DNA of 64,000 nucleotides from Rothia koreensis (GTDB lineage: Bacteria; Actinomycetota; Actinomycetes; Actinomycetales; Micrococcaceae): assembly GCF_004136575.1 (NCBI RefSeq), contig NZ_NOIQ01000001.1:434001-498000 (forward strand). Reading direction: 5' to 3'. The notes below the pieces were generated by a model. That model was not told where the DNA came from. It saw only the letters and a program-made list of their open reading frames with translations, and ran no database searches. The position numbers and the translations under genes were made by a program. Positions 50,144 to 61,626 of this stretch are shown here, piece after piece. The stretch's first letter is position 1. Every line of letters begins with the position of its first letter.

Positions 50144-51343
50144 ATGATGTCGCACCACCCCATCGCCATCCTCGGCGCCGGACTCGGAGGGCTGACCGCC
50201 GCCCGCGTTCTCCACGTCCACGGGATCGAGGCCACCGTGTTCGAGCTGGAAGCCGACCGGCACGCTCGAGTGCAGGGCGGCATGCTGGATATTCACGATC
50301 ACAACGGTCAGCTCGGTATCCGGGAGGCCGGGCTCTGGGATTCTTTTCTTGAAATCGTCCATCCCGGGGGAGAGGCCATGCGCATCCTCGACCACCGTGC
50401 GCATATCCTGTACGAGGACAGCGACGACGGTGATCTTACCCGACCAGAGGTCGACCGGGGAGCACTCCGCGATCTGCTCATCGACGCGGTGCCACAGGGC
50501 TCCATCGTCTGGGGACACAAAGCCATCAACGTCCGCCCTAACACGGAGGGCCCGGGCAGATTTTCGATCGACTTCAGCAACGGCCAGACCGTAACGACTG
50601 ACCTCCTGGTTGGGGCGGACGGTGCCTGGTCAAAGGTGAGGCCGCTCCTGACGGACGCCCGGCCGTCCTACACGGGAATATCTTTCGTCGAATCCGACCT
50701 CTTCGACGCGTCGGAGCAGCATCCGTCCGAGGCGTTGGCCATGGGTGAGGGCATGCTCATGGCTTTCCGGGGGAGCACCGGCGTCCTCGGGCATGCAGAG
50801 CCCGACGGCTCCCTGCACGCTTACGTCGGGTTGCGCGTTTCCGAAGACTGGATCGAGGTTTTCGAAGGGATCGACGAGGCGGCGGCACTAAATCTGGTCC
50901 TCGACCGCCTCGATGGCTGGGACGACTCTCTCCGTGGCCTGATTCGCAACGCTGATGTCCCATTGACGCCTCGACGCATCCACGCACTTTCGGTGGGTGT
51001 CAGCTGGGATCGCGTGCCGGGAGTGACTCTCCTGGGCGACGCCGCCCACCTCATGAGCCCGTTTGCCGGAGAGGGTGCCAACCTTGCCATGTACGACGGT
51101 GCGCGGCTCGCGCTGGCCATCGCTTCGCACCCGGACGACGTCGACGTGGCGATGGCTGAATACGAATCCGAGCTGTTCCCGCGGGCGACCGAGGCCGCAA
51201 GAGAGTCCGCAGAGAGCCTGGAAATGATGTTTCGCGCCGATTCGCCTGCTGGTCTGGTGGAGATGTTCGAAGGCATGCAGCTCGACGATGCAGGTGCCGG
51301 GCCCAACAGGAATTCCCTTGCACGTGGCCAGGACCCGGAATAG
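50144..51343 (+). CDS. FAD-dependent monooxygenase (TetX/PHBH-like)
   Basis: A 399-residue flavoprotein of the aromatic hydroxylase superfamily. The FAD-binding GAGLGG is at 11-16, the middle motif is LLVGADGAWSKVR, and the second FAD motif is LLGDAAHLMSPFAGEGANLAM (GD at about 297). The C-terminus is the short helical type, as in TetX-like and antibiotic-modifying enzymes. ATG 50144 has AGGAG upstream. Aromatic or polyketide-like compounds are likely substrates, but the exact one is unknown. It precedes an ABM-domain gene by 40 bases, suggesting one small operon. Confidence 0.85.
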   Translation: MMSHHPIAILGAGLGGLTAARVLHVHGIEATVFELEADRHARVQGGMLDIHDHNGQLGIREAGLWDSFLEIVHPGGEAMRILDHRAHILYEDSDDGDLTRPEVDRGALRDLLIDAVPQGSIVWGHKAINVRPNTEGPGRFSIDFSNGQTVTTDLLVGADGAWSKVRPLLTDARPSYTGISFVESDLFDASEQHPSEALAMGEGMLMAFRGSTGVLGHAEPDGSLHAYVGLRVSEDWIEVFEGIDEAAALNLVLDRLDGWDDSLRGLIRNADVPLTPRRIHALSVGVSWDRVPGVTLLGDAAHLMSPFAGEGANLAMYDGARLALAIASHPDDVDVAMAEYESELFPRATEAARESAESLEMMFRADSPAGLVEMFEGMQLDDAGAGPNRNSLARGQDPE

Positions 51344-51767: not shown

Positions 51768-52673
51768 TTAGTCGAGATCCAAGTGGCTCAGCACGTCGGA
51801 AATCTTCGCGCGCTGGCTGGCCGAAAGTGGTTGCAGAGGATCGGGCAGACAGTTGTCGGGCGCCAGGCCCAGATGCTCGGCTATCGCCGCCACCACGCGC
51901 AGGCTCCCTCCGAATTCGGCGAACAGATCCCACAGTGGGGCCAGTCGCTCCGACTCGGCGACGGCGTCGGCCGGCCTGCCCTGCTGCACGGCGCGGGTGA
52001 TGGCGAGCGCGGGTTCGGGCAGCGTCCCGGCGATGACCGAATACCAGGCGTCGCATCCCGCCGCGAGACCGGCCGCACCATACGCATCTCCCGAGACGCC
52101 AATGGTCACGTGCTCGGGTACGGCCGCTCGGATGGCTGCGACGTGAGCACGTGCGGCGTCCGGATCGGTGGGAACGCCCGGGATCTTGATCGAGCAGATC
52201 CCCGGCAGCTCGGCGATGCGGGCGTAGAGCTCATGGGTGAACGAGAAGTGCGTGGTCCCGGGATTGTCATAGACGATCACAGGAAGATCGGTGTGCTGGG
52301 TGACCGCACGATAGAGCTCGACGACGTCGTCGTGCGTCAGAGGCTGATAGGTCATGGGGGCAAGAAGCAGCCCCGAGGCGCCGGCGGCCTGCGCGGCCTC
52401 GGCGTTGGCCACAACGTGCGACGTCCGCAGCGCGCCGATGCCGACGACCACGGGTGTCTCCCCGGCGTGCTCGACAGCGATGCGTGCAACGTGGGCACGT
52501 TCTTCCGTGGTGAGGTAAGCGTACGAACCCGTCGAACCCAAGGCGGTGATCGCATCGACGCCCGTGGAGGACAAACGTTCCACAAGTCCGGCGAATGAAC
52601 GATCGTCCACCGCATCATCCCGGAGCGGGGTCAGCGGAAAAGCGCTCAATCCGGTGAATCCAGTCATGACCAC
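51768..52673 (-). CDS. dihydrodipicolinate synthase (DapA) family aldolase/lyase
   Basis: A 301-residue TIM-barrel class I aldolase. The N-terminal FPLTPLRDDAVDDRSFAGLV and TALGSTGSYAYLTTEE are family-typical, with the catalytic tyrosine in VIVYDNPGTTHF and the Schiff-base lysine in CSIKIPGVP. The family covers DapA, N-acetylneuraminate lyase, KDG aldolase and others. The place outside any lysine operon and beside oxygenase and ole genes argues against the housekeeping DapA. The substrate is unknown. It lies 87 bases past oleD on the same strand. Confidence 0.8.
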   Translation of the reverse strand: MVMTGFTGLSAFPLTPLRDDAVDDRSFAGLVERLSSTGVDAITALGSTGSYAYLTTEERAHVARIAVEHAGETPVVVGIGALRTSHVVANAEAAQAAGASGLLLAPMTYQPLTHDDVVELYRAVTQHTDLPVIVYDNPGTTHFSFTHELYARIAELPGICSIKIPGVPTDPDAARAHVAAIRAAVPEHVTIGVSGDAYGAAGLAAGCDAWYSVIAGTLPEPALAITRAVQQGRPADAVAESERLAPLWDLFAEFGGSLRVVAAIAEHLGLAPDNCLPDPLQPLSASQRAKISDVLSHLDLD

Positions 52674-52760
52674 TTCCTGTTCCTGTTCATGCCCCTCGCG
52701 ATCCGGTGGACCACATCGAGTGATTCCTCATCGCCCCCGAAGCGGCGTGCGGACGCCGTC

Positions 52761-53885
52761 TCAGACGAGCGGGCGCAACGACGCGGTGTTCTCGCTGCTG
52801 CGCGGGCGATAGTACCGACGCAGGCTTTCCATGCCCTCGTCGATCGAAACCTCGGGCTTCCAGTCGAGCAATTCGTGCGTCTCGCGCTGATCGAACCAGT
52901 GGGAGGTCGACAATTGCTCGGCCAGGAACCGAGTCATGGGAGGTTCGTCCGCACCCGGTCGCCGAGCCCAGATCTTCTCCACCACACTGCCTGCCAGCTT
53001 GGCCACGGACGCGGGGACCGTGCGTTGGGGCGGCTGGACTCCGGCGGCCTCGCACATCATCGTCATGAGTTCCCCGACGGTCCGCGGCTCACCGTTGCTG
53101 ATGACCAGGGGTTTCCCGTGCACGGTCTCGAGGCGTTCGAAATCACGGAGCACGGCCTCGGCCGCGTTGTCGACGTACGTTGAATCGATCAGTGCCGCCC
53201 CGGCGTCGAGCAGGGGAATCCCTCCGCGTGAGGCGCGTTCGATGACACGCTCAACGAGTTGGGTATCGCCGGGTCCCCAGACCAGATGCGGACGGACGAC
53301 GCCCACCAGGAGGTCTTGCGAATCGTAGTCGAGGGCCAGCCGCTCCGCGTATGCCTTGGACCGGGCATAATTGCCGCGCGCATTGTCGGGATCGGCCGGT
53401 TGGTTTCCCTGCCCCATGAATGCGGAGCCCGCGTGGGACACGGACGGCGAGGAGACCTGGACGAACCGGCCGATGCCCTCCGCCCGGGCCCCCTCGAGCA
53501 GAATGCGGGTACCCGTCACATTGGTCTCGACATATTCTTCCCAAGGGCCCGTGACGGAAACCTTCGCTGCCAAGTGCACGACGGCGTCGGCACCGTCGAG
53601 GGCGCGGGACACGTGATCGGGATGGGTGATGGATCCACGATGCTGCTCGAATCGTTCGAGCCCCTTGGGCTGCAGGGATTCCCTCACCGCGACGGCATCC
53701 CTGCGCTGGAAGCACCGCACGGTGTACCCGGCCCGGATGAGCTTGAGGGCCACGCGCGACCCGAGGAGGCCGCTCGCACCCGTCACGACGACGGTCCGGT
53801 CCTTGGAGTTTTCCAAGGAGCTGTCTGGCAGAATCGCCCGCCGCCCGCTCGGATCGGGAGCCGTCCATGCTGCGGTCTTGCTCAT
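52761..53885 (-). CDS. oleD: OleD: NADPH-dependent 2-alkyl-3-ketoacid reductase
   Basis: OleD is an extended short-chain dehydrogenase that reduces the 2-alkyl-3-ketoacid made by OleA to the 3-hydroxyacid. The 374-residue protein has the Rossmann motif TGASGLLG (35-42), VHLAAKVS, a catalytic Ser pair in QVSSPSVS and the YxxxK pair Y173/K177 (NYARSKAYAE). ATG 53885 overlaps the oleBC stop by four bases, so the genes are coupled. The longer frame to 54359 is a shadow of oleBC. It is the last gene of the leftward oleA-oleBC-oleD operon. Confidence 0.9.
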   Translation of the reverse strand: MSKTAAWTAPDPSGRRAILPDSSLENSKDRTVVVTGASGLLGSRVALKLIRAGYTVRCFQRRDAVAVRESLQPKGLERFEQHRGSITHPDHVSRALDGADAVVHLAAKVSVTGPWEEYVETNVTGTRILLEGARAEGIGRFVQVSSPSVSHAGSAFMGQGNQPADPDNARGNYARSKAYAERLALDYDSQDLLVGVVRPHLVWGPGDTQLVERVIERASRGGIPLLDAGAALIDSTYVDNAAEAVLRDFERLETVHGKPLVISNGEPRTVGELMTMMCEAAGVQPPQRTVPASVAKLAGSVVEKIWARRPGADEPPMTRFLAEQLSTSHWFDQRETHELLDWKPEVSIDEGMESLRRYYRPRSSENTASLRPLV

Positions 53886-56695
53886 GGTTTCCTGACCTTT
53901 CCGCCGGAGAGAACCGAATCCGCCCACGCTGCGAGGCGCGGCCTGTCGATCTTCGAATTGTGCCTGATGTCGGTCGGATGCTCGCGAACCTGCAGAATGG
54001 CCGCGACCCGGACCCCCGTGGCCGACTCGACGACCGAGCGCACGGCCCGAGCGAGCGCCTGGGGCGCGGGGCCGTCCTTGATCGCCCGAGAACCGTTCCG
54101 GGCCGGCGCCGACTCGCGTTCGACCACGACCACCGGGACCTGGGCCCCCCATGGTCCGACTCCGACGACGGCGGCCCGGCGAACCCCGGAAATCTTTTCG
54201 GCGGCCGTTTCCCCGGCCACCGGAGTGAGCAATCCGCTCTCCGTCGAGATGAGGTGCGACAGACGTCCCTCGACCCAGAGACGGCCCGTCGCGTCGAAAT
54301 GCCCGACGTCGCCCGTCCTGTGCCACCCGGGGATCGAGGCGGAAGTCCGCTCGGTCCACCAGAGGCGGTCATAATGATCCTTCGCGTGGGGTGCGGCGGC
54401 GATGATCTCACCGGTGATTCCCGGCGTGTGTGTTGGCTCGCCCGTGGCCGCACCGGTGTCGTCGAGCGGCACCACCTGGACGCGCGCGCCGTACACCGGG
54501 GTGCCGACGCACACCCCTGCTCCTGCGCCTTCGACGCCGTCCTGAGGGTCGGCATCGCGTTCCGCCTCGCGGATCTGATCCAGGTTCACGTCGGTCAGGG
54601 GGAGGCATTCGGTCATGCCATAGGGGGTGTGCAGTTTGGCGTGGGGACAGATCTCCTCCATGCCCTCGAGGAGGGGGACCGTGATCGGCGCCCCGGCGGA
54701 GAGCAGCCGTTCCACGCCCTGCATCGCCGCCTGCTCGTCCTCGTTCATGTCCTCGCGTGTCTCCACGACATTCATGAGCGCCGCCGGGCTGGCGAAGACC
54801 ACGGTCGCGGAAATGGCCCGGACGGCTTGGGCCAGGGCTTTCGCGGTCAGGGTCTTGGGCTGGGTCACGTCCATGTCGGGGGTGACCGATGTCGCCCCCA
54901 GAGCGGGCCCGAGCAGCGCGAAGGGTGCGAAACCGGCCACGAGGCCGGCCCCTTCGCCGAGACCGTAGGTGTTCTGGATCGCGTCACGCATCGACGAGAG
55001 CTGACGGTGCGTGTATGCGACTCCCTTGGCCGGGCCGGTCGATCCGGAGGTGTACAGGATCGCGGCGACGTTGTCGGGCTGAGGTGCGTTCCACGGCGTC
55101 GTCGGTTGGGCCGCGGAGACCTCGTGCGACTCGATGCCCGTTTCCGCGCCCAGGAGGCGCAGGGTCGACGAATGTGCGGTCCCCGCGAGAACCCGACGCC
55201 CGGGCCACCCCGCCGTCTTCGCGGCCAGCAGAGCCTGGGGGATGCCCACCAGGAACTCCGGCGACGCGCCACGGAGGGCTCTGGTGAGCCCCTTGATTCC
55301 GAGCCCGGTGTCGGCGACCACGATGACGGCCCCGATCTTGAGGCACGCATAGATCAGCGTGGTGAGTCGTGATCCCGGAGGAACCATGAGATTGACCCGC
55401 GTGCCTGCCTGGACACCCAGATCCCTGAGAACCTCCGCGGTACGGTCGACCTGTTCGGCCAGTTCGCGCCAGGACAGTTGGCGGCGGATCGTGGCCTGCC
55501 GAGTCCGGGACCGACGCTCCGAGTCGCCGGACCTGTCCTTGAGCCCGCGGCCGGCGGGACCCATATCGACGACGGCCAGCGAGTCGTCGTCGCGGCGTTC
55601 CTCCAGCTCGGAGACCATGGGCCTGTAATCCAGGGCCAGGGGAGAGGCCTTCCGGTCCTTCTCGCGGACGACCCGGTGACGTTCCACGACGTCGGGAGCC
55701 CCCAGATACGCCTCGTCCAACCAGGTGAACAGGACCGTGGAAATGTCCTCTTCCTCGGCGACCAGGTGCCCTGCCTTGTCGAACCGGTGGAGGGTGGCCT
55801 CCGGGTTGCGAGCGAGGATGTCGTCCAGATAGCGCTGTTTGAACACCGGATCGCCGGGCCCCCAGAGGACGAGGCAGGGGAGGTCATCGTCGGCGACGGC
55901 TTGCGCAATACGTTGCATCGCGGCGTAGGAACGGTGTCCCTCGTCCACGGGAATGTCCGCGACGAAGTTCTGGATCCCCTCTCTGGCCGCGGGGCTCGTG
56001 TAGGGGGACCGGAAGGTTTTCCTGACCTCGGGATCCCAGGTTCCCTTGTGCAGGGAAAGTGTCACGTCGAGGAACGCCGTCGTGGACCGTGTGCCCTTGC
56101 CGTGCACGGCCGGGTGCAGAGCCAGACGCAGGGCTCCCGGGATCTCTTCGCCCTGCGCGTGGTGGAGAGCGGTGTTGGTGAAGATACGACCGCGGTGCAG
56201 GTCGGGGTGTTTCATTCCCCAACCCTGGGAGATCAGGCCACCCCAGTCATGGCTCAGCGTCACGACGCCTTCAGGGCCCGCGGCGTCGTCGAGGCCCAGG
56301 GCTCGCGTGAAGTCCCCGAGGTCCCGGACGCGGTCCTCGAGGCTGCGCTCGAGGCCCGTACGCTCGGAATACCCCATGTCGAGCTGGTCCACTGCGACCA
56401 CTCGCCAGGGCTGGATTCCCGAGTTCGCACCGGCGGCGACGACGTTCCTCCACAGGTAGGACCATGTCGGATTGCCGTGCACGCAAAGAATCGTGCCCAC
56501 GGGGTCGAGCCCCTGGCGTTCGAGTTCGGGCCCGTTGTCCAGGAAATGCCAGGTACGCAGCGACCCGGAATCCACGGGGGCGGTCGATTCGGCGTCGATC
56601 ACCCTGCTGGCGTCCCTGGCCACTCCAGGCCAACGCTTGAGCGGGATCGGCCCAGGTCGTGGTGTGGGGCGAGTTGTCCGGTTCGCGGTGGCCAT
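53882..56695 (-). CDS. oleBC: OleBC fusion: beta-lactone decarboxylase plus beta-lactone synthetase
   Basis: A 937-residue two-domain enzyme. Residues 1-335 form OleB, a haloalkane-dehalogenase-like alpha/beta hydrolase with HGNPTWSY (73-80), nucleophile D150 in LSHDWGG and H310 in DKAGHLV. OleB decarboxylates the beta-lactone to a cis-alkene. Residues from about 370 form OleC, an ANL-superfamily enzyme that closes the 2-alkyl-3-hydroxyacid to a beta-lactone using ATP. Its P-loop is YTSGSTGPAKG (549-559), followed by TPYGMTE and HRTGDVG. OleB and OleC are separate in Xanthomonas and fused in Micrococcus-type actinobacteria. The gene starts 31 bases after oleA. Confidence 0.92.
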   Translation of the reverse strand: MATANRTTRPTPRPGPIPLKRWPGVARDASRVIDAESTAPVDSGSLRTWHFLDNGPELERQGLDPVGTILCVHGNPTWSYLWRNVVAAGANSGIQPWRVVAVDQLDMGYSERTGLERSLEDRVRDLGDFTRALGLDDAAGPEGVVTLSHDWGGLISQGWGMKHPDLHRGRIFTNTALHHAQGEEIPGALRLALHPAVHGKGTRSTTAFLDVTLSLHKGTWDPEVRKTFRSPYTSPAAREGIQNFVADIPVDEGHRSYAAMQRIAQAVADDDLPCLVLWGPGDPVFKQRYLDDILARNPEATLHRFDKAGHLVAEEEDISTVLFTWLDEAYLGAPDVVERHRVVREKDRKASPLALDYRPMVSELEERRDDDSLAVVDMGPAGRGLKDRSGDSERRSRTRQATIRRQLSWRELAEQVDRTAEVLRDLGVQAGTRVNLMVPPGSRLTTLIYACLKIGAVIVVADTGLGIKGLTRALRGASPEFLVGIPQALLAAKTAGWPGRRVLAGTAHSSTLRLLGAETGIESHEVSAAQPTTPWNAPQPDNVAAILYTSGSTGPAKGVAYTHRQLSSMRDAIQNTYGLGEGAGLVAGFAPFALLGPALGATSVTPDMDVTQPKTLTAKALAQAVRAISATVVFASPAALMNVVETREDMNEDEQAAMQGVERLLSAGAPITVPLLEGMEEICPHAKLHTPYGMTECLPLTDVNLDQIREAERDADPQDGVEGAGAGVCVGTPVYGARVQVVPLDDTGAATGEPTHTPGITGEIIAAAPHAKDHYDRLWWTERTSASIPGWHRTGDVGHFDATGRLWVEGRLSHLISTESGLLTPVAGETAAEKISGVRRAAVVGVGPWGAQVPVVVVERESAPARNGSRAIKDGPAPQALARAVRSVVESATGVRVAAILQVREHPTDIRHNSKIDRPRLAAWADSVLSGGKVRKP

Positions 56696-56726
56696 GAATA
56701 CCTCTTTACGTGCTGTGGTCCTGTTG

Positions 56727-57758
56727 CTACCAGTCGATTTCCATGAGGGCGGTGTTCAGACCCGACCCGACACCCATGCACAGGACGCGTTGCCCCGGTT
56801 TCAGGCGTTCTGCCTCGAGTGCGAGCGTCATGGGCAGCGCAGCCGCTGCAACATTTCCCCAATAAGGGAAGGTCACGGGGATCCTGTCACGCTCGATACC
56901 GACGGCGTCGATGATCGCGTTGGTGTGGGAGGTCGAAATCTGGTGCGTGACATAGGAATCCATGTCCGTCCAGTCCCAACCGTCCTCGTGAGCCTGGTCC
57001 CACGCGTCCGTGACGAGTTCGAGACCGTACTTCAGCAGGCCGGTGGCGTCCGTGCTCATTCCCTGGCCGGCTTCGCCACCGATGCAGAGATCCTTGTGCT
57101 CCGTCCCGGCGCGGGAGATCGAGCCGAGGATGCGGTGGCCTTCCGGGTGGCGATCCGATCGCCCGACGACGGCGGCAGCGGCCCCCGACCCCAGGGTCAG
57201 CGTCGCGAACTGTGCGAGGACGTCGTCACGGGTCGATGCGGACTGGTTGAGCATGTTCAAGGCCGTCTCGTGCCACGGCGAGGGGTCCTCCCCGCACACG
57301 ATGAGCGCGTAGTCGATCGCACCGGCGTCGATCATGGAGGAGGCGACCGTCAGACCGTTGACGAACCCGAGGCACGCGTTGGTCATGTCGAAATTCAGCG
57401 CGTGACGGGGCAGGCCGATCTCGTGGTGCACCCCGACGGCGACGGCCGGCTCGAAGTTGTCGCGGGTCACCGACGTGTTGATGAACAGACCGATGTCCTC
57501 CGCCGAGATCCCGGCTTCCTCCAGGGCCGCACGCCCTGCTTGGGCCGCTCCGTGTTCGAAGGAGCTGTCTGCCGACCACGAGCGCCGCTCGCTGATGCCT
57601 GCCAGACGTTCCAGAAGACCCTTGGGCATCTTGAGGCGTTTGTACGTGTCAGCCAGCTGTTCGTCGAAGTATGAAGAAGGCAGTACCTCTTCGGCCTCCA
57701 CCTTCGTCACTGAAAGTAGTGCGGAATTGCGATGGTGGATAGACGAGTTAGCGGTCAA
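56727..57758 (-). CDS. oleA: OleA: thiolase-fold acyl-CoA head-to-head condensing enzyme
   Basis: OleA performs non-decarboxylative Claisen condensation of two fatty acyl-CoAs, the first step of long-chain olefin synthesis. The 343-residue protein is FabH-like, with catalytic C129 in FDMTNACLGFVNG, H272 (VTHQIS) and N302 (WGNVAAAA). LFINTSVTRDNFEPA matches OleA rather than FabH. The glutamate near E160 or E113 cannot be matched to the known catalytic Glu by eye. I keep the TTG start at 57758 because RNSALLSVTKVEA looks conserved; GTG 57710 is the alternative. It is the first gene of the ole operon, divergent from smc. Confidence 0.9.
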   Translation of the reverse strand: MTANSSIHHRNSALLSVTKVEAEEVLPSSYFDEQLADTYKRLKMPKGLLERLAGISERRSWSADSSFEHGAAQAGRAALEEAGISAEDIGLFINTSVTRDNFEPAVAVGVHHEIGLPRHALNFDMTNACLGFVNGLTVASSMIDAGAIDYALIVCGEDPSPWHETALNMLNQSASTRDDVLAQFATLTLGSGAAAAVVGRSDRHPEGHRILGSISRAGTEHKDLCIGGEAGQGMSTDATGLLKYGLELVTDAWDQAHEDGWDWTDMDSYVTHQISTSHTNAIIDAVGIERDRIPVTFPYWGNVAAAALPMTLALEAERLKPGQRVLCMGVGSGLNTALMEIDW

Positions 57759-58008
57759 TTAAACGAGCCTTCATCCGTGAGTCTGTGGGTCTGTGTCGAG
57801 AACACCGAGGGCGGCACTCGAGGTACTACTCTACAACCAGGATTCTGCCTGTCCTGCGATTTCACCCTTGACAGAAAAGTTCCCGGGGTGGGGTCGCGCA
57901 CGGCCGTCCTGGCAGGGTGGTCCCTGCAGGTCGCGATACAGTGGGCCGTTGTGGCTCAGATGGCGAGACCACGCGGACCTCGGTCGCACCGACAGGAAAA
58001 GAGGCGAT

Positions 58009-61000
58009 GTGCACCTCAAGACGTTGACGGTCAAGGGATTCAAGTCCTTTGCATCAGCCACTTCCTTCGAGTTCGAGCCCGGGGTCACCGCCGTCGTCGG
58101 GCCCAACGGCTCGGGCAAGTCGAACGTCGTCGACGCCCTCTCCTGGGTCATGGGAGAACAGGGCGCGAAGTCCTTGCGCGGCGGAAAGATGGAGGACGTG
58201 ATCTTCGCGGGCACGTCCGGTCGCGCACCCCTGGGACGCGCGCACGTATCGCTGACGATCGACAATTCCGACGGCGCCCTCCCGATCGAGTACTCCGAAG
58301 TCACGATCTCCAGGACACTGTTCCGCACGGGCGGCTCCGAGTACGCGATCAACGGCAATTCCTGCCGTCTGCTGGACATCCAGGAGCTGCTCTCCGACTC
58401 CGGGCTCGGGCGGGAAATGCACGTCATCGTGGGGCAGGGGCAACTGGACCGCATCCTGCATGCCACTCCGGAAGAACGGCGCGGTTTCATCGAAGAAGCC
58501 TCTGGCGTGCTCAAGCACCGGCGCCGCAAGGAGAAGACCCTCCGCAAACTGGCCTCCATGGAAACCAATGTGTCCCGCCTGGAAGACCTCACGGGAGAAA
58601 TCGGTCGTCAGCTGACACCCCTGGGGCGGCAGGCCAAGGTGGCACGCCGGGCCCAGAGGATTCAGCACGACGTCCGAGACGCTCGGGCCAGGCTCTTTGC
58701 CGACGACTGGATCCAGGCCTCGACCGCGTTGGATTCGGACGCCGACGAACTCCAGAGGCTCCGCGACCAACTGGCGGAGCGCGAACGGGCCCACGACGAG
58801 ATCACCCGCATCATCACCGAGCTCGAGGCCGAAGCATCGACGCTGAGCCCCCTCGTCACCCGGGCCCGCGACACCTGGTACTCGTTGTCCCAGATGCGCG
58901 AGAGGTTCGAGTCCCTGACCCAGCTGGCCCAGGAACGGCTCCGGACCCAGTCGACGCCGGTGGGCCGGGCACACCTGCGCGACCCGGAGAAACTGCAGGA
59001 AAACGCGGACCGCATTGCCCGGGACCTCGAGTCCACCGAGGCCTCCGTGGAAAGAGCCCGCGAAGACCACGAGTCCTCGGGCACGACCAGAGCGCAGAAG
59101 GAAGAGGCGGCGTCCGAGGCTGAAGAGCACCACGCCAACCTTCTCGCCGCAGCCGCCGAACGGCGCGAGAACATCGCCTCACTCCGCGGGGCCATGGCCA
59201 CGGCCCGGTCCGAACACGAAACCCTCGTGGCCCGCCGCGAGGAACAGGAACGCGAAGTCGAGGCCGTCGACCGGCGACTCGAGGAATACCGCGGTCAGTT
59301 GGCCCAGCAGACCGAGGCGTCCGGACCGACCGAGGAGGACACCACGGCTGCCTCCGAGGCCTCCGAGGCCGCACATGCCCAGACCGAGTCGACTCAGGCC
59401 GCCCTCGACCATGCTGCGTCCCGGTTGAACACCGTGAGACGAGACCACGACGCCGCCCGGGCCCGAGTCGAAGCGCTCGAGGAATCCCTTCCCGCGGCCG
59501 ACGCGACGGAGGCGATCATGGATCGCTTCCGCGACCACGTGTCCAGGGTCCGGGAGCGCCTGACCGTGGACCCGGAGCACGCCGCCGCCGTCTCGACGGC
59601 GATGGGCACAGTCGCGGACGGCCTGGCTCTCTCCGAGGGCGCCGACTTCGAGGCGGTTCTGGAGGAAGCACGCACTTCGGACCTCGGCGTCGTCAGCCTC
59701 CTGCTCGAAGCGGAGAAGACACACACCGCGGCGGGCACCGACCCCGAGCCTTCTGACAGTGCCTTCGGCGCATACCTCGAGGAACTCGCCTCGAGCGGCA
59801 CGGACGTCGTCTGGGCCCCACGAGCCATCACGGGCGGGGCCTCTGCGCAAGAGGTCCAGGCGCTCCTGAGCCGGTGCGCCGTGGTTCCCGACGCCGCATC
59901 GGCCGCTCAACTGCGCTCGCGTCTGCTCGCCGACGCCGACGCGCCCGAAGTCCCCGCGGCCTGGAAGATCGTGGCAGCCGACGGAACCGTCCTCGAAGAG
60001 CACCAGGCTCGGGGCGGAAGCTCCGGCGGCACGTCCGGCCTGGAAATCAGCGCACGGATCGAGCTGGCCAGGGCCAGGGTCGAAGAGCTCGGTCAAGAAT
60101 TCAGCGCCGCGGAGAAAGCACACGAGCAGGCCTCCGAAGAACATCGCGCGGCCCGCGAAAAGGCCCGCACCGCCCGCGAGGAGTTCGCACGGATCAGCCG
60201 GGAATCGACCGCGAGCGCCGCGGCACTTTCCCGGGCCAGAACGCTGGTGTCCTCGACCGAGGAAGAGGCCGAGCAGGCGCGGGGGCGTCTCGAGGAGCTG
60301 AAACGGCAGGAGCCCGACGCCGCCGACAAGCTCAAACAGGCGGTCGGCGCGGTCTCTGCCGCCCTGGAGCTCCAGGACCAGGACGGCGGCGAGGCGCTGG
60401 AACGAGCCGAGCGCATTCGCGACGAAGCGGTCGAGGAAGCAAAGGCGGCTCGCACACGAGAGACCGAAGCCTTGCTGAGCCTTCGTGGCGTCGAGGGAGA
60501 GATCGATCAACTGCGGCAGAGGCACGACGCCGCCTTGCGGACGGTGGCCTCGGAGCGGGCCGCCCACGCCGAGGTCGAACGGCAGGAGACGCGACGAAAG
60601 GCCCAGTACTCGGCCACCAGCAGGGTCTTGTCACTGATCGGCAAGGTCAGCGAGCGTATTGACGCATCCTCCGACCTGGCCAGGGTCGAACGAGAGAGCA
60701 TGCAGACCAGGCGTGCCGGCGTCGAGACCCGACTGGCGGAGGCCCGCGAGAAGGAGAAGAAGCTCCGCGAGGAGCTGGATTCGACTCGGTCCAAGGCCCA
60801 TTCGGGTGAGCTCGAACGGGCCACGAGGGAGGCAAAGCTCGAATCCCTGCGCGAGACGATTCTCGAGGAACTGAGCCTCACCGCCGAGACCCTGGTTGCC
60901 GACTACGGCCCGCACTTGCCCATCCCTGTCCTCGACGAATCGGGCGAAGTGGTCGGGGAGGAGCCCTTCGTCCGCGCAACGCAGGAGAAACGACTGGGCA

Positions 61001-61626
61001 CGGCGCGCAAGGAATTGAAGTCGCTCGGCAAAGTCAATCCGCTGGCCCTCGAAGAATTCGCAGCCCTCGAGGAGCGACACACCTACCTCGTCCAGCAACT
61101 CGAGGACCTCAAGGCCTCGAGGGCGGATTTGGAAGAACTCATCCGCGATCTCGATGACCACGTCCGAGACGTGTTCACCCAGGCGTTCCACGACACCCAG
61201 GAGCAGTTCGTCCAAGTATTCTCGACCCTGTTCCCGGGCGGCGAGGGCAAGCTCGTCCTCACGGACCCGAACGACATGCTGTCCACCGGAATCGAAGTCC
61301 ACGCCAAACCCGCGGGCAAGAAGGTCAAGAGGCTGTCGTTGCTCTCGGGCGGCGAAAGGTCACTGACCGCCATTGCCATGCTCGTGGCGATCTTCAAGGC
61401 CAGGCCTTCGCCCTTCTACGTCATGGACGAAGTCGAGGCGGCGCTCGACGACAGGAACCTGGGCCGGTTGCTGACGATTCTGCGCGAGCTGCAGACCAGC
61501 TCGCAGCTGATCATCATCACGCACCAGAAAAGAACCATGGAGATCGCGGACGCGCTCTACGGCGTCTCGATGCGGGGCGACGGCATCACCCAGGTCATCT
61601 CGCAGAAGCTCGCCGACCTGCGCTGA
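58009..61626 (+). CDS. smc: chromosome segregation protein SMC
   Basis: SMC is the condensin ATPase that organises and segregates the chromosome with ScpA and ScpB. The 1205-residue protein has Walker A GPNGSGKS (31-38), a Q-loop region VGQGQLDRIL, two long coiled-coil arms and a hinge near 490-690. The ABC signature LSGGER is at 1112-1117, and Walker B reads YVMDEVEAALDD. GTG 58009 with AAAAGAGG upstream gives the family start HLKTLTVKGFKSFA; the longer frame from 57793 is not conserved-looking. It converges with the MFS gene, leaving nine bases. Confidence 0.97.
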   Translation: MHLKTLTVKGFKSFASATSFEFEPGVTAVVGPNGSGKSNVVDALSWVMGEQGAKSLRGGKMEDVIFAGTSGRAPLGRAHVSLTIDNSDGALPIEYSEVTISRTLFRTGGSEYAINGNSCRLLDIQELLSDSGLGREMHVIVGQGQLDRILHATPEERRGFIEEASGVLKHRRRKEKTLRKLASMETNVSRLEDLTGEIGRQLTPLGRQAKVARRAQRIQHDVRDARARLFADDWIQASTALDSDADELQRLRDQLAERERAHDEITRIITELEAEASTLSPLVTRARDTWYSLSQMRERFESLTQLAQERLRTQSTPVGRAHLRDPEKLQENADRIARDLESTEASVERAREDHESSGTTRAQKEEAASEAEEHHANLLAAAAERRENIASLRGAMATARSEHETLVARREEQEREVEAVDRRLEEYRGQLAQQTEASGPTEEDTTAASEASEAAHAQTESTQAALDHAASRLNTVRRDHDAARARVEALEESLPAADATEAIMDRFRDHVSRVRERLTVDPEHAAAVSTAMGTVADGLALSEGADFEAVLEEARTSDLGVVSLLLEAEKTHTAAGTDPEPSDSAFGAYLEELASSGTDVVWAPRAITGGASAQEVQALLSRCAVVPDAASAAQLRSRLLADADAPEVPAAWKIVAADGTVLEEHQARGGSSGGTSGLEISARIELARARVEELGQEFSAAEKAHEQASEEHRAAREKARTAREEFARISRESTASAAALSRARTLVSSTEEEAEQARGRLEELKRQEPDAADKLKQAVGAVSAALELQDQDGGEALERAERIRDEAVEEAKAARTRETEALLSLRGVEGEIDQLRQRHDAALRTVASERAAHAEVERQETRRKAQYSATSRVLSLIGKVSERIDASSDLARVERESMQTRRAGVETRLAEAREKEKKLREELDSTRSKAHSGELERATREAKLESLRETILEELSLTAETLVADYGPHLPIPVLDESGEVVGEEPFVRATQEKRLGTARKELKSLGKVNPLALEEFAALEERHTYLVQQLEDLKASRADLEELIRDLDDHVRDVFTQAFHDTQEQFVQVFSTLFPGGEGKLVLTDPNDMLSTGIEVHAKPAGKKVKRLSLLSGGERSLTAIAMLVAIFKARPSPFYVMDEVEAALDDRNLGRLLTILRELQTSSQLIIITHQKRTMEIADALYGVSMRGDGITQVISQKLADLR

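Follow-up and report, generated by a model that had tools for sequence, protein, structure and literature searches.

A predicted olefin biosynthesis operon with an OleB-OleC fusion in Rothia koreensis

Introduction

Does the locus carrying oleA, oleBC and oleD in Rothia koreensis encode a complete route to olefins, and does the fusion of OleB with OleC serve to hand a reactive intermediate from one active site to the other? In the route described for other bacteria, OleA condenses, OleD reduces, OleC closes a beta-lactone and OleB decarboxylates it to a cis alkene; the same source reports that nearly every Micrococcaceae species with a complete genome has an ole cluster, and that olefins were measured in Rothia among other genera (PMC7158056). 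The oleBC fusion is described in Actinobacteria, typically in Micrococcales, and has also been reported in Granulosicoccus (PMC7064751). The gene layout, the OleB-OleC fusion and the presence of olefins in a Rothia strain are already published (PMC7158056, PMC7064751), as are the operon and its products in Micrococcus and Kocuria.

In this work, the genes were analysed within a window of 64 kb, this being the whole stretch of DNA under study. A first-pass annotation had proposed that the ole operon is complete and carries an OleB-OleC fusion, and the intact frames, family matches and active-site residues described below agree with that proposal. The locus is read here, with a probability of about 0.93, as a full set of ole (olefin) biosynthesis genes in one operon, of the kind usual in Micrococcaceae. 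Its function in the cell, each chemical step, the product and the cellular place are those that we infer from characterised relatives.

Operon layout and possible expression

By open reading frame inspection, oleA, oleBC and oleD are found on one strand in the order A-BC-D with all frames intact (Table 1), so that a broken gene within the operon was ruled out. An intergenic gap of 31 bases (56696-56726) separates oleA from oleBC, and oleBC overlaps oleD by the four bases ATGA (53882-53885); the strand, the gap and the overlap had been given likewise in the first-pass annotation, and all coordinates were re-derived with the same result. For comparison, 428 named stretches were found to encode a relative of OleBC, and the best 80 of the 428 were kept. 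In all 80 of these loci, oleA precedes and oleD follows oleBC on the same strand.

Table 1. Coordinates and features of the predicted ole operon within the window
Feature	Coordinates	Strand	Description
oleA	56727..57758	minus	predicted condensing thiolase, 343 aa, TTG start; E103, C129, H272, N302
oleBC	53882..56695	minus	predicted fused beta-lactone decarboxylase and beta-lactone synthetase, 937 aa, ATG start
OleB part, about residues 19-326	55718..56641	minus	alpha/beta hydrolase, haloalkane dehalogenase type; N75, D150, W151, D282, H310
OleBC junction, about residues 327-358	55622..55717	minus	modelled helix 336-350; length and sequence variable among relatives
OleC part, about residues 359-937	53885..55621	minus	AMP-binding (ANL) fold; TSGSTGPAKGV at 549-559
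oleD	52761..53885	minus	short-chain dehydrogenase/reductase, 374 aa, ATG start; TGASGLLG, Y173, K177
oleA-smc gap, 250 bases	57759..58008		presumed ole promoter site; smc divergent

The TTG start of oleA (57756-57758) stands directly after an in-frame TAA. When the start codons of the relatives were taken as the candidate nearest to the homologous position, TTG was obtained in 77/80, with another in-frame ATG or GTG nearby in 69/80; under this rule the rare start appears to be conserved, although the other starts nearby weaken the case. The same rule places oleBC at a spacing of -55 bases from oleA in 46 of the 80 loci, which is likely an artefact of start choice. A terminator scan of the ole region returned two terminator-like sites against 3.2 expected.

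An intact operon that is silent or weakly used would be compatible with all the enzyme roles proposed here, and it is the strongest of the other readings, though an unlikely one. The TTG start of oleA is in keeping with it, as are the lack of any sigma-70-type promoter match in 52500-58100 and the published account of several Micrococcales that make traces only (PMC7158056). Against this stand three intact frames with their active sites kept, and the listing of Rothia among the genera with measured olefins in that same account.

Neighbouring genes

The smc gene (58009-61626) lies head to head with oleA over 250 bases. It is also found in 46 of the 80 named loci, and in 45 of these it has the same head-to-head arrangement, no more than about 360 bases from oleA. 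On the other side, a dihydrodipicolinate-synthase-like gene (51768-52673) follows oleD on the same strand after 87 bases; a wider operon including it was considered and rejected, as no match to this gene was obtained in any of the 80 loci (E 1e-20). Further along, the FAD-dependent monooxygenase at 50144-51343 reached 159.5 bits with the model for the tetracycline-inactivating Tet(X), which is far below the threshold of 750 bits, and its product is probably an ordinary flavin monooxygenase.

OleBC and OleD

OleBC matched AMP-binding (PF00501) with 163 bits and Abhydrolase_1 with 60 bits, and OleD matched SDR families, Epimerase (PF01370) with 116 bits. By sequence, the OleB part retrieved haloalkane dehalogenases from the PDB and the OleC part AMP-forming ligases. 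The fold search with the OleBC model returned AMP-forming ligases, and because the larger domain fills the 50 matches listed, the fold of OleB rests on sequence.

The residues named in the first-pass annotation (D150 and H310 of OleB, the P-loop of OleC at 549-559, and Y173 and K177 of OleD) were all found. N75, D150, W151, D282 and H310 of OleB are invariant in 81/81 sequences, as are the P-loop TSGSTGPAKG of OleC (T549 to G558) and Y173 and K177 of OleD, which also has the Gly-rich loop TGASGLLG. A pentad of this Asn, Asp, Trp, Asp, His type is described for subfamily III haloalkane dehalogenases, including DhmeA and the OleB of Xanthomonas campestris (XcOleB), and the Asp-to-Asp and Asp-to-His spacings of 132 and 28 residues in R. 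koreensis compare with 129 and 28 in DhmeA (PMC10503415). Unlike DhmeA and XcOleB, the R. koreensis OleB is fused to an AMP-forming ligase domain.

With the dedicated NCBIfam models the scores were lower than the cut-offs. The OleC part obtained 318 of 900 bits with NF045786 and 261 of 850 bits with NF045785, both olefin beta-lactone synthetase models, and OleD obtained 276 of 580 bits with NF042422 and 232 of 580 bits with NF042423. The proteins of Kocuria rhizophila TA68, used as a control, also fell short (305 and 256 bits for OleC, 281 and 221 bits for OleD); this species is named as the one in which the route was first described (PMC5857589). Because the control proteins fall short too, the sequence scores suggest models that are too narrow for this branch rather than another function.

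The intact OleB part bears on whether the cluster could end at the beta-lactone, with a lipstatin-like product instead of an alkene, as in actinobacterial oleACD clusters. Some Actinobacteria with such clusters do make beta-lactones (PMC7064751), but oleACD clusters have no oleB, whereas here the OleB part is whole and keeps all five residues of its active site, and no glycosyltransferase or P450 match was obtained among nine proteins scanned from the 64-kb stretch. This end product was rejected in view of the intact OleB part and is considered very improbable.

OleA

OleA scored 436.9 bits with NCBIfam PRK09258 (cut-off 285) and 106.5 bits with the FabH model TIGR00747 (cut-off 292.1). A search of the R. 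koreensis genome for the KAS III domain gave three matches besides OleA: two are FabH, with 312 and 293.5 bits to TIGR00747, and the third, which is below the cut-off of the domain search, scores as HMG-CoA synthase. In the PDB sequence search, the X. campestris OleA chains came first (E 2.4e-66), and the best FabH had an E value of 5.8e-20.

The catalytic residues C129, H272 and N302 proposed in the first-pass annotation are present and align to C143, H285 and N315 of the solved X. campestris OleA, and E103 aligns to E117, in the numbering of the 358-aa PDB construct. All four are invariant in 81/81 aligned sequences, while the two FabHs of the same genome carry T and S at the E103 column. 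Glu117 of OleA is reportedly key to the condensation, being so named in the title of one paper. The published OleA pattern, EPxx[AS]x(14,18)DxxNACL (PMC7158056), was found in 81/81 OleA rows, R. koreensis included, and in 0/2 of its own FabHs. Grouping with OleA or with FabH in a tree was the test put forward in the first-pass annotation, and a 24-row tree separates the 21 OleA sequences, that of X. campestris among them, from the genome's own two FabHs with support of 98/98, although the program flagged long branches for X. campestris OleA, the FabHs and the HMG-CoA synthase.

The weakest of the alternatives, in which OleA would act as an additional FabH to initiate fatty acid synthesis and the operon would be some other kind of lipid-modifying cluster, can draw on the NCBIfam title of PRK09258 ('3-oxoacyl-ACP synthase III') and is rejected as extremely improbable by the scores, the tree, the E103 column and the pattern, the genome having two better FabH candidates elsewhere.

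Relatives and distribution of the fusion

Among the best 80 loci, the closest OleBC proteins belong to Kocuria sp. 36, Curtobacterium sp. S6 and Kocuria massiliensis, with 84%, 79% and 77% identity, and their OleA proteins are 95%, 92% and 91% identical to that of R. koreensis, respectively. The oleA-oleBC gap in these three is estimated at 28, 30 and 31 bases, all have the 4-base overlap, and a divergent smc stands ahead of the operon as in R. koreensis; unlike the ATG of R. koreensis, the oleBC start is estimated to be TTG in two of them. The OleA tree places R. koreensis in a clade with these three and three Rothia species (99/97), in keeping with a place in the Rothia/Kocuria lineage of Micrococcaceae. 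Longer N-terminal tails of OleBC and OleD were considered as a trait of this close group and discarded, as longer OleD and OleBC occur elsewhere.

The order-wide sample comprised 248 genomes, that of R. koreensis included. An OleA above the PRK09258 cut-off was found in 97/248 and an OleBC match, taken as E 1e-60 or better, in 103/248, and all 97 are among the 103. In 102 of the 103 genomes a single open frame of 851 codons or more contains the OleBC match, and the remaining frame, of 750 codons, lies at a contig end; these frames run from stop to stop and so somewhat overstate gene length, and a few of the 102 match the query only partly among the matches listed. Because 102/103 OleBC matches sit in one long frame, the OleB-OleC fusion is the rule in this order. 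Apparent internal stops in the OleBC of two distant genomes were traced to the stop codons with which the matched stretch ends.

Within the genus of R. koreensis, one genome (G014; 99% complete, 5% contamination) has no OleBC and gave weak matches for OleA (E 1.7e-5) and OleD (E 5.3e-5). The ole operon is thus not universal in the genus, as this genome is without all three genes, and it has likely lost them. Six other genomes of the genus (G001, G008, G009, G019, G021 and G034) have OleBC matches with an interruption around residues 217-222 of the OleB part, and four of them show a further one near 330-356. The OleBC frame is fragmented in G001, and it measures 1013-1024 codons in the other five.

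In a different genus of the order, six genomes (G156, G211, G169, G234, G100 and G142; 7.8-9.4 Mb), these being all of that genus among the matches listed, have a fused oleBC with 48-51% identity and an OleA-like gene of 180-192 bits, below the PRK09258 cut-off. In the first four (loci L135, L136, L137 and L138) the OleA-like gene adjoins oleBC and oleD (52-54%). Its product has 28-30% identity to the R. koreensis OleA and keeps the Glu, Cys, His and Asn, with NACN instead of NACL, and the published pattern misses it.

With regard to known systems, the OleA of X. campestris has the same active-site residues at 38% identity, and the OleB and OleC of that bacterium are separate proteins. The ole operons of Micrococcus luteus and Kocuria have the same three genes in the same order with the OleB-OleC fusion, M. 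luteus being likened by its published description (PMC7158056). Kocuria OleBC proteins outside the close group are 56-57% identical to that of R. koreensis, and, as far as seen, the Kocuria operon differs by sequence divergence alone.

The fusion junction

The first-pass annotation had also held that the fusion channels the beta-lactone from the OleC domain to the OleB domain, and this claim did not find support. From the conserved L326 of OleB to P359 of OleC, the junction measures 19-71 residues over 81 sequences (median 29; R. koreensis 32), and the mean share of the commonest residue per column is 0.26, compared with 0.77 for the OleB part and 0.75 for the OleC part. A wider measure, from L326 to W409 (46-105 residues), takes in conserved OleC positions, A374 and others. 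With its length so variable and its conservation so low, the junction shows no conserved channel-forming linker across the 81 sequences.

An AlphaFold model of OleBC was built from 33 sequences (mean pLDDT 83.8, pTM 0.84). It has helices at 318-330 and 336-350, with mean confidence per block at 80-92 across residues 331-380, whereas residues 1-18 and 382-399 are modelled with low confidence; in this model the R. koreensis junction looks ordered, with fair confidence. It is doubtful that the fusion goes beyond a loose tether, with helix 336-350 positioning the two active sites for transfer of the beta-lactone from OleC to OleB without release, and that the genes have stayed fused through selection for such a transfer. 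The OleB, OleC and OleD proteins of other bacteria are described as forming a large complex (PMC6463001), and because of this the fusion may be needless for the hand-over.

Proposed route and product

By analogy with the characterised enzymes, OleA would condense two activated fatty acids head to head, OleD would reduce the ketone, the OleC part would activate the acid with ATP and then close the beta-lactone, and the OleB part would split off CO2, giving an internal cis alkene. For a host whose order has mostly branched C14-C17 fatty acids, a branched monoalkene of C23-C31 is the probable product. The range of C25-C31 given in the first-pass annotation is plausible, because published Micrococcales olefins average C27-C29 and those of Kocuria are C21-C27; the olefin profile is described as largely set by OleA, in a study in which Kocuria oleA was exchanged into M. 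luteus (PMC7158056).

Significance

Direct hand-over of the beta-lactone, if true, would make this enzyme a useful model for reactive intermediates and for hydrocarbon engineering. For the family itself, the R. koreensis locus adds one well-preserved operon to those already published and agrees with the fusion as the normal state in this order.
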